From Acidimicrobiia bacterium (GTDB taxonomy: Bacteria > Actinomycetota > Acidimicrobiia > Acidimicrobiales > VFJN01): 64,000 nt of DNA. How positions within the stretch are numbered: position 1 is the first letter of the stretch; the number at the start of each line of letters is the position of its first letter. The notes under the pieces are model-generated. The model did no database searches and had not been told where the DNA came from. It saw only the letters and a list, made by a program, of their open reading frames with translations. Below are positions 31,868 to 37,594 of this stretch, piece after piece. The position numbers were made by a program, and so were the translations under genes. The stretch lies in contig SHVB01000001.1 of assembly GCA_009694375.1 (NCBI GenBank), positions 134,366 to 198,365 on the forward strand, in the 5' to 3' direction.

Positions 31868-32977
31868 CTACAACAGAGCGAGGTCGTGGTCAGCGTGGTT
31901 GAGGACATCGGGGCCAGAGACCGCCGCCACCACGATGTCCTCTAACCGAAATCCGAAACGGCCCTCCACGTAAATGCCGGGTTCGATGGAAAACGCGTGG
32001 CCCGGCTCGAGCGGGGTCTCGTTGCCGCTCACGATGTAGGGATCCTCGTGTTCCTCGATGCCGATGCCATGCCCGGTGCGATGCATGAACTCCTCGCCCC
32101 ATCCCGCCGCCGTGATGATCCGGCGGGCGGTGGCGTCTACCTCTGCACACGATGTGCCCGCCACCGCCGCCGCCACTGCAGCCTGCTGGGCCTCGATCAG
32201 CACGGCGTAGGCCTCGGCCATCTCCTCGCTGGGCTCGCCCAGGTGCACACAGCGGGTGATGTCGGAGCAGTAGCCCACTCCGTGGTCATCGAACATCGAC
32301 CCACCAAAATCACAGAGCACGACCTCACCGGGTTTGATCACCACTTCGCCTGGCTCATGGTGAGGGCTGGCCGCGTTGGGGCCCGCCGCCACAATGGCGA
32401 AGTTCACCCGATGGTGGCCTTCGGCTCGGAGGCGGCGACCGAGTTCGGCTGATACCTGCGCTTCGGTGCGGCCCACCAATTCGATCTCGCCGGTCTGCAG
32501 GGCGAACGCCACCCGATCGGCGGCGGCCCCGGCGGCGCGCAGAGCCTCCACCTCAGCGGCGTCCTTCCGGGCACGCAGGGGCCCCAGTACCTCACTGGCC
32601 TTGCGCCAGGTGGTGCCCGGCCGTATCCCTTGGAGGTCGAGCACGAACCGAGCCCAGGTGCGATCGCCTATCGCCAGGCGGCCACCGGTTCCCATGAGAC
32701 CCTGCACGATAGCGATCGCGTCCTCCGTCTCACCCCAGGGCCTCAGCGTGAACTCGGGCCGTTCCATCACGCGGGGGGCTTCGAGGCGAGGAACCACCAA
32801 CGTCGCTTGTCCCTCGGCCGGGAGTACGAGCATGGTGAGCCGCTCCAGGGGCATCGCCTCGTACCCAGTGAGGTAGGGCAGATCGGGGCCGACCGAGAGC
32901 AGGAGGGTATCTACCGCGCCCTCCACCATGGCCGCCCGCGTCCGAGCGAAGCGATCGGAAAACGGGGCGGCGGCCAT
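31868..32977 (-). CDS. M24 family Xaa-Pro aminopeptidase-like metallopeptidase
   Basis: 369 aa. The N-terminal creatinase-like domain is followed by the pita-bread domain with all metal ligands: CDFGG, CSDITR, RTGHGIGIEEHE, SIEPGIY and FRLEDIV. It cleaves N-terminal X-Pro bonds. ATG 32977 was chosen because it overlaps the LipBA stop by one base (TGATG) and gives a normal start; a longer frame adds 10 residues inside lipBA. Confidence 0.92.
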   Translation of the reverse strand: MAAAPFSDRFARTRAAMVEGAVDTLLLSVGPDLPYLTGYEAMPLERLTMLVLPAEGQATLVVPRLEAPRVMERPEFTLRPWGETEDAIAIVQGLMGTGGRLAIGDRTWARFVLDLQGIRPGTTWRKASEVLGPLRARKDAAEVEALRAAGAAADRVAFALQTGEIELVGRTEAQVSAELGRRLRAEGHHRVNFAIVAAGPNAASPHHEPGEVVIKPGEVVLCDFGGSMFDDHGVGYCSDITRCVHLGEPSEEMAEAYAVLIEAQQAAVAAAVAGTSCAEVDATARRIITAAGWGEEFMHRTGHGIGIEEHEDPYIVSGNETPLEPGHAFSIEPGIYVEGRFGFRLEDIVVAAVSGPDVLNHADHDLALL

Positions 32978-34704
32978 CAACCCAGGATGACAGGTTGCAC
33001 GGCACATTCCTGCCCCGTCGTGTCGCCACTCCCGATAACCACCGGCACTGCGGACGCAGCCTGGCGAGCGTGGTAGCTCGACCGGACCAGCGGGCCAGCC
33101 TCGACGTGGCTGATGCCCATGGCCTCTCCGGCCACCTTCAGGGCGGTGAGTTCCTCAGGAGTCCACCAGCGCGCCACCGGCAGGTGGTTTGAGGTGGGTC
33201 GGAGATATTGACCGATAGTGACGATGTCTACCCCCACGCCCCGCAGGTCACCCAGGGTCTGGAGCATCTCATGGGTGGACTCCCCCATCCCCGCGATCAC
33301 CGAGGACTTGGTGGTGAGGCCGGCCCGTTTGGCCCGAGCCAGCACCGCCAGCGACCGAGCGTACGAGGCCGAGGGCCGCACGGCGCGCTGGAGCCGCGCC
33401 ACCGTCTCGATGTTGTGGTTCAACACGTCCGGCCGGGCGGCGAAGATAACCTCCAGGGCCGCAGGGTCGCCCTTGCAGTCGGGGATCAGCACCTCCACCG
33501 ACACGCCGGGAGTGCGGTCCCGAATGGCGCCGATCACCGCTGCGAACTCGGCGGCACCGCCATCGATGAGATCATCACGGGCCACCCCGGTGACCACCGC
33601 GAACTGCAAACCCATGCGGGCCACCGCCTCGGCCACGCGCCCCGGTTCGCTCCGATCGGGAGCCTCAGGATGACGCGTATCCACCAGACAAAACCCGCAA
33701 GCACGAGTGCATCGCTCCCCGTTGATCATGAAGGTAGCCGTGCCATCCGACCAACATTCCGACAGGTTCGGGCAGCCGGCTTCCTCGCACACGGTGACCA
33801 GATCGAGTTCGCGCATCGTGCGTCGAATAGCCATGACCTCAGGGGTCAGCACGAGCGGGGCTCGCATCCAGGCTGGCTTGCGGGCCGCCATCTCGATGCC
33901 CTCGGTTACCCCTGCCTCCACCAGGCGGGTGGCCCGCCGCGCCGTAGGACCCGGTCCCTCACCCCGACTGAAGGGCGCTAGATCCGCCGGAGTATGTCGC
34001 CAAGCCACCTCGGCCCGATCCACCCCGGCCGCTCCCCATCGCTCCCCCGCTCGAGCCACCACTGCGTCCACCACTTCGCGCATCGTGGCCGTCACTCCCT
34101 CCACCCGCAGGGAGGTCACCGCTTTGTCGGCGATGCCACAGGGAACGATGTGTTCGAACATCGCCAGATCGGGATCCACATTGAGCGCAAATCCGTGCAT
34201 CGACCGACCGCGAGAAAGTTTCACTCCGATGGCGCAGATCTTCCGGGGGGCTACCGAACTCGGCTCCACCCATACCCCCGGGAACCCTGTGAGCCGGCCC
34301 ACGTCGGTCAGGCCCAGGTCGTGCAGCACATCGATCACCAGTTGCTCCACCGACGCGACGTAAGCCACGGTGTCGGTGATCCCGCCGCCGCGCCGTCCGG
34401 GTACGGTCAGGATCGGATAACCCACCAACTGTCCGGGGCCGTGGAAGGTGACGTCACCACCCCGGTCGCTGTATTCCAGTGTGGCGCCAACCTCTTCGGG
34501 AGGTCGGCGAATGTTCCCGAGATCGCCCCGAATTCCGAGCGTGTAGACCGCCGGATGCTCCAACAGCAGGAAGTAATTCTGCGACGAGGACCCGACGAGT
34601 CCTCGCTGCAACGCATAGGCGTCGCGGTAGGCCACCCGGCCCAGCCACCGCACGCGCAGCCGGTTGGGGTGGTCCGCCACCGATCGGCCCGCCGCGTTGC
34701 TCAC
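32977..34704 (-). CDS. lipBA: LipB-LipA fusion: octanoyltransferase plus lipoyl synthase
   Basis: 575 aa in one uninterrupted frame. Residues 1-240 are LipB: RGGDVTFHGPGQLVGYP, catalytic Lys near 155 (RKICAIG) and catalytic Cys189 (VPCGIADKAV). Residues 275-575 are LipA, a radical-SAM enzyme: auxiliary cluster Cys306, 311 and 317, the SAM cluster C332-x3-C336-x2-C339, and the C-terminal RSSYHARQ. The chain would move octanoate from acyl carrier protein to an E2 Lys and insert the two sulfurs. GTG 34704 overlaps the E2 stop by one base. The E2 substrate and E3 are encoded directly upstream in the same operon. Confidence 0.93.
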   Translation of the reverse strand: MSNAAGRSVADHPNRLRVRWLGRVAYRDAYALQRGLVGSSSQNYFLLLEHPAVYTLGIRGDLGNIRRPPEEVGATLEYSDRGGDVTFHGPGQLVGYPILTVPGRRGGGITDTVAYVASVEQLVIDVLHDLGLTDVGRLTGFPGVWVEPSSVAPRKICAIGVKLSRGRSMHGFALNVDPDLAMFEHIVPCGIADKAVTSLRVEGVTATMREVVDAVVARAGERWGAAGVDRAEVAWRHTPADLAPFSRGEGPGPTARRATRLVEAGVTEGIEMAARKPAWMRAPLVLTPEVMAIRRTMRELDLVTVCEEAGCPNLSECWSDGTATFMINGERCTRACGFCLVDTRHPEAPDRSEPGRVAEAVARMGLQFAVVTGVARDDLIDGGAAEFAAVIGAIRDRTPGVSVEVLIPDCKGDPAALEVIFAARPDVLNHNIETVARLQRAVRPSASYARSLAVLARAKRAGLTTKSSVIAGMGESTHEMLQTLGDLRGVGVDIVTIGQYLRPTSNHLPVARWWTPEELTALKVAGEAMGISHVEAGPLVRSSYHARQAASAVPVVIGSGDTTGQECAVQPVILG

Positions 34705-35990
34705 TAGAGCTCGGCTGCCCAGTCCCGTGTTTCCAGGAGGTTCCTAACCTGGTTCAGAAACGATGCGGCGTAGGCGCCATCGAAGGCACGGTGGTCCCAT
34801 GACAACACGATATTTCCGACGGAGTGAATGGCGATGCTCTCTGAGCCGTCGGGTAGTTCAACCACCACGGGTCGGCGCTTCACCCCATCGGTGGACAGGA
34901 TCGCCACCTGGGGTTGATTGATGATCGGCATGGTCAACAGCGTGCCCTGGGGTCCGGGGTTGGTGATGGTGAAGGTGCCGTTGGAGATGTCGTCGGGGGT
35001 GAGTTTCTTGGAGCGCGCCCGGGCACCGAGATCCCTGATTTCCCGGGCGATCGCCCGCATCCTCTTCGAGCCGGCATCGCGCACTACCGGCACCATGAGG
35101 CCCTTGAAGTCCAAGTCCACCGCGATGCCGAGGTTCAGATACTGATGCACGATCAGCGCTTCGTCGGTGAAGGTGGCGTTCACCTCGGGGAATTCGGAAA
35201 TGGCATCGACCACTGCTCGAGTCACGAACGGCAGGTAGGTGAGGCTGAAACCTTCCGCATCGTTCCACTCCTCGCGATGGGCCCGCCGCACCCGGTCCAC
35301 CGCTTCGAAATCCACCTCGGTGGCCATGTAGACGTGGGCGGAGGTGTCCAACGACCGCCGCAGGTGCTCGGCGCTACGTCGGCGGATGTTGCTGTGGGGG
35401 ATGACCTGATCGCGATCGCCACTGTGCGGTCCCACTGCCGAATCCGAGGCCGGGGCTGGAACGTCGGGCTCCGCCGCCGACGATGCCCCAGTAGCCACGG
35501 TGGTGAGAGGCTGGCCGCCGGAGTCAACCACGGCGAGCACATCGCCACGGGTGATCCGCCCTCCAATCCCGGTGCCCACGATGGTGGACGGATCGAGGCC
35601 GTGCGTGGTCAGGAGGCGACGCACCACCGGCGACAACAACACCCCGGCGGCACTCGGTCGGGGAACCTCCGGCGGGGACACCGGAGCGGGCGCGGGCGCG
35701 GGCGCGGGCGGCAAGGTGGGCGCGGGCGGCAAGGTGGGCGCGGGCGCGGCCATCTCTGCCTCGCCGATCACGGCGAGCACCGCACCAACATCCACGGTCT
35801 CACCTTCGGCGACCCTGATCTCCAAAAGGGTGCCCGAGCACGGGGACGGCACCTCGGAATCCACTTTGTCGGTAGAGACCTCGTAGAGCACCTCGTCCTC
35901 GCCCACCAACTCGCCCACGGCCTTGAACCACTTCGTGATGGTGCCTTCGGTGATCGTCTCCCCGAGTTGGGGCATCGTGATGTCGGTCAT
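34704..35990 (-). CDS. 2-oxo acid dehydrogenase E2 (dihydrolipoamide acyltransferase)
   Basis: 428 aa. The lipoyl domain carries Lys42 in STDKVDSE. A Pro-Ala linker with near repeats (PAPTLPP) follows, then an E1/E3-binding domain (SPVVRRLLTTHGLD) and the catalytic domain ending with SWDHRAFDGAYAA. It serves as the core of a pyruvate or 2-oxoglutarate dehydrogenase complex; with AceE in the same window, pyruvate is likely. It lies between lpdA and lipBA, so the lipoyl acceptor and the lipoylating enzyme are made from one mRNA. Confidence 0.93.
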   Translation of the reverse strand: MTDITMPQLGETITEGTITKWFKAVGELVGEDEVLYEVSTDKVDSEVPSPCSGTLLEIRVAEGETVDVGAVLAVIGEAEMAAPAPTLPPAPTLPPAPAPAPAPVSPPEVPRPSAAGVLLSPVVRRLLTTHGLDPSTIVGTGIGGRITRGDVLAVVDSGGQPLTTVATGASSAAEPDVPAPASDSAVGPHSGDRDQVIPHSNIRRRSAEHLRRSLDTSAHVYMATEVDFEAVDRVRRAHREEWNDAEGFSLTYLPFVTRAVVDAISEFPEVNATFTDEALIVHQYLNLGIAVDLDFKGLMVPVVRDAGSKRMRAIAREIRDLGARARSKKLTPDDISNGTFTITNPGPQGTLLTMPIINQPQVAILSTDGVKRRPVVVELPDGSESIAIHSVGNIVLSWDHRAFDGAYAASFLNQVRNLLETRDWAAEL

Positions 35991-36011: not shown

Positions 36012-37418
36012 CTATCCGTGCAGCGAGCGGCCGGTGAGGCTGATCATGGCCTCGCCGAGCACCTCAGTGAGGGTGGGATGGGGTTGGATGAGAGCCGCCA
36101 TGTCTTGAACGGTGGCCTCCCAGTTCACGGCCAGGTAGCCCTGACCAATCTGCTCGGTCACCCACGGGCCCACCATGTGCACACCCAACACGCGCCCCGC
36201 CCCACCGTCGGCCATCTTTTCGGCGATGACCTTCACCATGCCCTCGGGTTGGTTGACGATCATGGCCCGGCCGTTGTGGTTGAAGCGGCTCTTCTGGGTC
36301 ACAACATCGAAGCCGGCTTCCCGAGCCGCCTCCTCCGACAGCCCCGTAAACGCCGCCTCGGGGCGGGTGTAGACGGCCCAGGGCACCTTGGCGTAATCCA
36401 CCGGGGTTGGGTTCTCGCCGAGAATGTCCCCGATGGCGTGCATCCCCTCGATGAACGCGATGTGGGCGAGGGCGGGGGTGTCGATGGCATCCCCCACGGC
36501 ATACACACTGGGCTCCGCGGTACGACAGCGGTCGTCAACCTCGATGAACCCGCGGTCCGAAACGGTCACGGCGGTGCCATCCAGACCCAGGTCAGTGGTG
36601 TTGGGTCGGCGCCCCACCGATACAACGACCACCTCGACGTGGACCGATTTCTCGCCTACCTGCACACTCGTACCGGTAGCGGCGGGTTGGTGGCCGCCCA
36701 CCTGAACCCCGGTGCGAATGGTGATGCCCCGTGCCTTGAAGGACTTCTCGATGACCTTGGTGAGGTCCTTGTCCAGGCCCGGCAGGATCTTGGGCAGCGC
36801 TTCAAGAATGGTTACCTCGGTGCCGAGGTCGGAGAGCAAGGACGCAAACTCGCACCCCACCACGCCGCCGCCGATGATGGCCGCCGACTTCGGCAACCGG
36901 GCGATCGAGAGGAACTCATCGGAGGTCATCACCACCTCGCCGTCTACCTCGAAACCGGGCAGGACGCGCGGCACGGAACCAGGCGCAAGCACTACGGCAC
37001 CACCGGTGAGCTCAACCTCACCCGATGCCCCACCCGCAACAGTGACGCGCCGGTCGGCGTGCAGCCGGCCGTAGCCGTCGAGCACGGTGACCTTGCGGCT
37101 CGTCAACAGGGATCCAAGACCCGCCACCAGCCCTGCCACGATGGAGTCCTTGCGATCAAGCGAGGTGGTCCAGTCGATGCGGGGCTCATCGGACACGATG
37201 CCGAACGCCCCCGCCTCTTTCACATGGCGGTAGGTGGCGGCGGTCTCGAGCAACTCTTTGGCGGGAATACACCCCACGTTGAGGCACGTCCCGCCGAGTT
37301 TGCCCTTCTCGATCATGGCGATGTTCAGTCCGGCGGCGGCACCGTAGAGCGCGGTGGCATAACCGCCGGGACCGCCGCCGATGACGACGACGTCGTAGTG
37401 CTCGGCCGTGGGAATCAC
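36012..37418 (-). CDS. lpdA: Dihydrolipoamide dehydrogenase (E3)
   Basis: 468 aa, family length. FAD motif VVVIGGGPGGYATAL, redox disulfide GGTCLNVGCIPAK, the NAD-domain GGGVVGCEFASLL and the C-terminal His-Glu in HPTLTEVLGEA are all visible. It reoxidises the lipoyl group of E2. The start is uncertain: GTG 37418 is the only codon near the family start, but a GGAGGTGAT sequence overlaps it directly. A TAGGGT element at 37459-37464 would give a leader of about 35 nt. First gene of the lpdA-E2-lipBA-M24-membrane operon. Confidence 0.93.
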   Translation of the reverse strand: MIPTAEHYDVVVIGGGPGGYATALYGAAAGLNIAMIEKGKLGGTCLNVGCIPAKELLETAATYRHVKEAGAFGIVSDEPRIDWTTSLDRKDSIVAGLVAGLGSLLTSRKVTVLDGYGRLHADRRVTVAGGASGEVELTGGAVVLAPGSVPRVLPGFEVDGEVVMTSDEFLSIARLPKSAAIIGGGVVGCEFASLLSDLGTEVTILEALPKILPGLDKDLTKVIEKSFKARGITIRTGVQVGGHQPAATGTSVQVGEKSVHVEVVVVSVGRRPNTTDLGLDGTAVTVSDRGFIEVDDRCRTAEPSVYAVGDAIDTPALAHIAFIEGMHAIGDILGENPTPVDYAKVPWAVYTRPEAAFTGLSEEAAREAGFDVVTQKSRFNHNGRAMIVNQPEGMVKVIAEKMADGGAGRVLGVHMVGPWVTEQIGQGYLAVNWEATVQDMAALIQPHPTLTEVLGEAMISLTGRSLHG

Positions 37419-37458
37419 CTCCGGGTGAAGTAGGCCGTGGACAGGAAGAACCGAGACA

Positions 37459-37464
37459 ACCCTA
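37459..37464 (-). promoter_or_regulatory. -10 element TAGGGT before lpdA
   Basis: TAGGGT within a 14-bp block identical to the pduO promoter region (CCGGTAGGGTTGTC). It would drive the five-gene lipoate/E2/E3 operon. Confidence 0.5.
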
Positions 37465-37498
37465 CCGGTGTGTCCACGCCCCTGGCGAAGAAGGGCCG

Positions 37499-37594
37499 TT
37501 AGCTCGCGCCGATGAGCACGAGTTGCAGCGCCCCCGCCATCAGGATCACCATGCCGCACAGCAGCGCAGCCACCAACAGGGCACGAGTGCTCAT
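37499..37594 (-). CDS. 31-aa single-helix membrane peptide
   Basis: A short frame from ATG 37594 to TAA encodes MSTRALLVAALLCGMVILM and ends ALQLVLIGAS. It is almost entirely one membrane helix with a basic N-terminus. It begins 10 bp after the stop of the upstream TrkA gene and would be the third gene of that operon. I know no family. It could be a small regulator of the potassium system, or chance. Confidence 0.4.
   Translation of the reverse strand: MSTRALLVAALLCGMVILMAGALQLVLIGAS

Follow-up and report, generated by a model that had tools for sequence, protein, structure and literature searches.

Throughout almost the whole class Acidimicrobiia, the octanoyltransferase LipB and the lipoyl synthase LipA are encoded as a single fused chain. 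The fusion is real and conserved, while the chemistry, both enzymes and the adjacency of their genes were already known. The gene lies in a window of 64,000 nucleotides (the whole stretch of DNA that was analysed) from the genome of an Acidimicrobiia bacterium (assembly GCA_009694375.1, contig SHVB01000001.1), referred to here as the source genome. The features that concern us are as follows, in window coordinates.

36012..37559, minus strand: lpdA, dihydrolipoyl dehydrogenase (E3); TIGR01350, 477 bits.
34704..35990, minus strand: E2 acyltransferase with one lipoyl domain (DKV lysine motif); PF00364, PF02817 and PF00198.
32977..34704, minus strand: LipB-LipA fusion gene, 575 aa, GTG start at 34704; open reading frame with halves assigned by Pfam and NCBIfam.
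34048..34683, minus strand: LipB octanoyltransferase half, residues 8-219; PRK14345 and TIGR00214, structural match to 1w66 (Z 29.4), invariant Lys155 and Cys189.
33946..34020, minus strand: linker proper, approximately residues 229-253, which differs between fusions in both length and sequence; judged from column conservation, pLDDT and length range.
33889..33945, minus strand: residues 254-272, structurally equivalent to the N-terminal tail that M. tuberculosis LipA has as a separate protein; aligned to 5exk from its residue 11.
33055..33894, minus strand: LipA lipoyl synthase half, residues 271-550; TIGR00510, structural match to 5exk (Z 41.5), invariant columns.
31868..32977, minus strand: M24 metallopeptidase, likely ATG at 32977; PF00557.

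The LipB half matches PF21948 at residues 26-217 in a Pfam search, and it passes both TIGR00214 lipB of NCBIfam (128.8 bits against a cut-off of 83.55) and PRK14345 (residues 8-219; 178.1 against a cut-off of 155). The LipA half passes TIGR00510 lipA (residues 271-549; 335.2 against a cut-off of 310.25) and contains the auxiliary-cluster motif Cx4Cx5C (Cys306, Cys311 and Cys317) followed by the radical-SAM motif Cx3Cx2C (Cys332, Cys336 and Cys339). In an alignment of 46 fused relatives, Lys155, Cys189 and the RGG loop (R81-G82-G83) of the LipB half were invariant; the same held in the LipA half for the six cluster cysteines and for Ser543, the serine in RSSY. Roles have been described for the Lys/Cys dyad and RGG loop of LipB (PMC9307952) and for Cx4Cx5C, Cx3Cx2C and RSSY as ligands in LipA (PMC12246082). 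A reading of the window made from sequence only had proposed that this 575-codon frame holds a complete octanoyltransferase and a complete lipoyl synthase with six cluster cysteines; the profile matches and the positions of these residues bear out both parts of the proposal. With this complement of residues, the fused chain would be expected to have both enzyme activities.

The fusion belongs to a conserved group of genes. Among relatives with enough flanking DNA, a gene for E2 lies directly upstream of the fusion in 54 of 61 loci and lpd lies upstream in 52 of 54, while an M24 peptidase is directly downstream in approximately 40 of 71. The position of the fusion behind lpdA and E2, noted in the sequence-only reading, therefore reflects a conserved E3-E2-LipBA order, which supports an operon, and from this gene order lpdA, E2 and LipBA would be co-transcribed. 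That reading also had the genes joined by one-base stop/start overlaps. This holds for E2 and LipBA, whose stop and start share one base (TAGTG, 34706-34702), but lpdA and E2 are separated by 21 bp, with the end of lpdA at 36012 and the start of E2 at 35990. The second one-base overlap is instead between the LipBA stop and the ATG of the M24 peptidase (TGATG, 32979-32975). The E2 protein comprises a lipoyl domain, an E3-binding domain and a catalytic domain, and it is likely the main substrate of the fusion enzyme.

We searched the remainder of the source genome (2.58 Mb, 96% complete) for other proteins of lipoylation. Neither a separate lipA or lipB nor a second fusion-related copy was found there, leaving one locus only, so that any de novo synthesis of lipoate would depend on the fusion chain for both steps. 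The E2 encoded at 34704..35990 is the sole 2-oxoacid dehydrogenase E2 matched by the lipoyl-domain model in this genome; the other matches were biotin-type carboxylase proteins and one unrelated secretion-type protein. Because GcvH, a second lipoyl acceptor, is encoded on another contig, at least two acceptors are expected and the fusion probably serves acceptors beyond E2. The same genome encodes an orphan protein of 234 aa with the LplA/LipB fold (PF21948, 40.7 bits; L137:1315-2019, plus strand, contig C7). Its gene is located just upstream of mraZ, it carries an RRSGGGA motif, and it had no match to a specific curated family; it could be a lipoate ligase or an amidotransferase.

In the established pathway octanoate passes from ACP to the LipB cysteine and from there to the lipoyl lysine; the octanoyl-lysine so formed is the substrate of LipA (PMC9307952, PMC12246082). 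We propose that octanoyl-ACP would donate its octanoate to Cys189 of the LipB half, where Lys155 would act as partner, and that this half would then load the group onto the lysine in the lipoyl domain of E2, as well as that of GcvH. The LipA half would follow with radical-SAM chemistry, consuming its auxiliary iron-sulfur cluster to insert two sulfurs, at C6 and C8 of the octanoyl group. The product is not covalently bound to the enzyme, and the lipoyl domain would have to swing or re-bind between the two sites. Since the intermediate sits on E2 or GcvH, any passing between active sites would have to mean movement of the lipoyl domain itself. The likely benefits are that the two enzymes are supplied at a fixed 1:1 ratio and that a lipoyl domain fresh from octanoylation by LipB finds LipA at high local concentration. 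We consider it very probable that the fusion is one bifunctional lipoylation enzyme, the product of a single ancient joining of lipB and lipA, for which tethering would be the advantage. Counting against this explanation, the orphan LplA/LipB-fold protein might do part of the transfer.

How closely the two halves cooperate depends on what lies between them. An AlphaFold2 model of the 575-aa chain gave a mean pLDDT of 85.7 and a pTM of 0.88, and a model of the fusion putatively from A. ferrooxidans gave 89.9 and 0.91. In the source-genome model the LipA half superimposes on M. tuberculosis LipA (5exk; Z 41.5, 2.0 A over 294 residues, 48% identity) and the LipB half on M. tuberculosis LipB (1w66; Z 29.4, 1.9 A over 202 residues). 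Residues 254-272, which include a short helix at 255-263 in the model, match the N-terminal tail of the stand-alone LipA, which leaves only approximately residues 229-253 as the linker itself, with the lowest predicted confidence at residues 241-250. From the catalytic cysteine of LipB to the first cysteine of LipA there are 117 residues in the source-genome fusion and between 95 and 238 in the 151 fusions measured, and column conservation shows the middle of the linker to be poorly conserved in sequence. The longest linker seen, at locus L179 (genome G253), owes more than 100 additional residues to REHD-like repeats. The linker motif F-S/A/T-R-G was considered as a diagnostic and rejected, being present in only 103 of the 151 fusions.

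These observations bear on whether the halves form a rigid two-site machine that hands the octanoyl-lipoyl domain straight from the LipB to the LipA pocket. The high pTM of both whole-chain models, above what would be expected for freely floating halves, argues for a preferred predicted arrangement, and the gene for the E2 substrate adjoins the fusion in nearly all loci. However, the wide range of lengths of the joining stretch is easier to reconcile with a tether than with a rigid channel, its middle is poorly conserved, and the second substrate GcvH is encoded elsewhere; we therefore regard a rigid machine as unlikely. Equally doubtful is the broader proposal of a class-wide machine, in which a conserved two-site arrangement would let a single encounter suffice for octanoylation and sulfuration of the E2 lipoyl domain, and E3, E2 and the enzyme would be co-produced as a self-contained unit.

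It is also conceivable that the fusion is functionally two proteins, with free LipA made in addition by internal initiation or by proteolysis of the linker. The linker is indeed variable and of low predicted confidence, and Met272 is placed just ahead of the conserved LipA start. Against this stands the persistence of one frame across the class: all 20 loci chosen from deep families of Acidimicrobiia are fused in one stop-free frame, with no reversal to two genes, which suggests that the join itself is maintained. We judge the production of free LipA to be quite improbable. That one half is inactive and acts only as a scaffold is highly improbable, because neither half shows any variation in its catalytic or cluster residues and the source genome yielded no further lipA or lipB.

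Following the suggestion of the sequence-only reading, we looked for genomes in which LipB and LipA match one protein, and found the fusion across the class Acidimicrobiia, ruling out an oddity local to one genome. In the source genome's own family it is present in 7/7 genomes, although contig ends truncate the gene in one of these (G001). Matches were obtained in 142 of 148 genomes sampled from the order and in 275 of 296 sampled from the class, and among the matches listed most span both halves. When the 55 genomes with a partial or fragmented match were searched again, halves located on one contig always shared a frame, except in G330 and G131, where the frame breaks inside or next to LipA. 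One further genome, G225, encodes a lone LipB of 250 aa (L184, contig C15) with a cytochrome P450 gene where LipA is expected. LipA was not found in this genome bin; it may be on a missing contig or may have been lost, and the case counts against the preferred explanation. Separately, three records titled 'Bifidobacterium breve' (L082, L111 and L122) carry the Acidimicrobiia-type fusion and look like mislabelled metagenome bins.

A stop or a sequencing error at the join had been named in advance as the observation that would speak against the fusion. A base-by-base check found both halves in one stop-free frame in 134/134 related loci, a count that includes some genomes twice because they were reached through two collections. 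Moreover, a closed chromosome of 2,158,157 bp encodes lpd, E2, a 540-aa LipB-LipA and an M24 peptidase in the same order as the source genome. The chromosome of the A. ferrooxidans type strain was published with this same length, 2,158,157 bp (PMC3035218), and the closed chromosome is thus putatively that of A. ferrooxidans. Although most relatives are metagenome-assembled genomes and the frame is broken in G330 and G131, the uninterrupted loci, the independent fused assemblies from dozens of families and the closed chromosome refute the idea that two genes were joined artificially in assembly or sequencing, the chance of which is now negligible.

Elsewhere in the phylum the two enzymes are encoded separately. 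None of the 79 actinobacterial genomes examined for both halves is fused, in keeping with the earlier statement that LipB and LipA are usually two genes; this sample was drawn from Actinomycetota, and fusions may exist in other phyla. In 30 of the 79 genomes lipB is followed by lipA within 400 nt, and within 5 kb in 23 more. These adjacent genes have the same order and strand as the fusion but, unlike it, occupy two separate and mostly out-of-phase frames, and 20/20 loci inspected from elsewhere in Actinomycetota are separate ORFs. Long frames around lipB made some genomes outside the class, for example G440, G401 and G403, possible fusions; in each LipA proved to be in another frame. In plasmid records recovered by a tBLASTn survey, lipA and lipB are annotated separately where they are annotated.

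With separate genes elsewhere in the phylum and joined genes in almost all Acidimicrobiia, the join must be both real and old. Trees of LipB and LipA were built from 43 fused and 20 separate sequences, and in each the fused sequences fell on one side of a branch (SH-aLRT 91 for LipB and 96 for LipA). Considered alongside the adjacent lipB-lipA pairs of other actinobacteria, the fused clade makes a single joining followed by vertical descent the simplest history. The trees came from a quick search and contain several open forks and long branches, and so are compatible with a single origin rather than proof of one. The data fit one ancient fusion, in which neighbouring lipB and lipA would have been joined once, no later than the last common ancestor of Acidimicrobiia, and then kept almost without exception.

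Each half closely resembles a known enzyme. The LipB half shares its fold, Lys/Cys dyad and RGG loop with M. tuberculosis LipB (1w66; TIGR00214), and unlike that stand-alone protein it runs without a stop into LipA. The LipA half shares its fold, both cluster motifs, the RSSY serine and the N-terminal tail with M. tuberculosis LipA (5exk; TIGR00510), and differs in having LipB at its N-terminus. The nearest known architecture is the NCBIfam family NF053790 (LplA_LipA_fuse, bifunctional lipoate--protein ligase/lipoyl synthase), which also places an acyl-attaching enzyme N-terminal to LipA; there it is the salvage ligase LplA, whereas in Acidimicrobiia it is LipB. The fusion described here is not a member of this family, as only profile positions 328-605 (LipA) match, with 335 bits against a cut-off of 800, and the LplA positions 1-327 are unmatched. 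We found no paper describing a LipB-LipA fusion in the literature on lipoate enzymes and fusions, of which few subscription papers were covered. If the closed chromosome is that of A. ferrooxidans, the fusion has been public at least since the 2009 genome of that organism.

As long as the two enzymes are separate, it is difficult to test whether LipB and then LipA act on one lipoyl domain in close proximity. The existence of a natural fusion maintained across a class is strong 'Rosetta stone' evidence for coupling of the two steps in the cell, and the fusion offers one chain in which the structure of the LipB/LipA pair with a lipoyl domain can be studied. For the Acidimicrobiia themselves, the fusion provides a clean molecular marker of the class.
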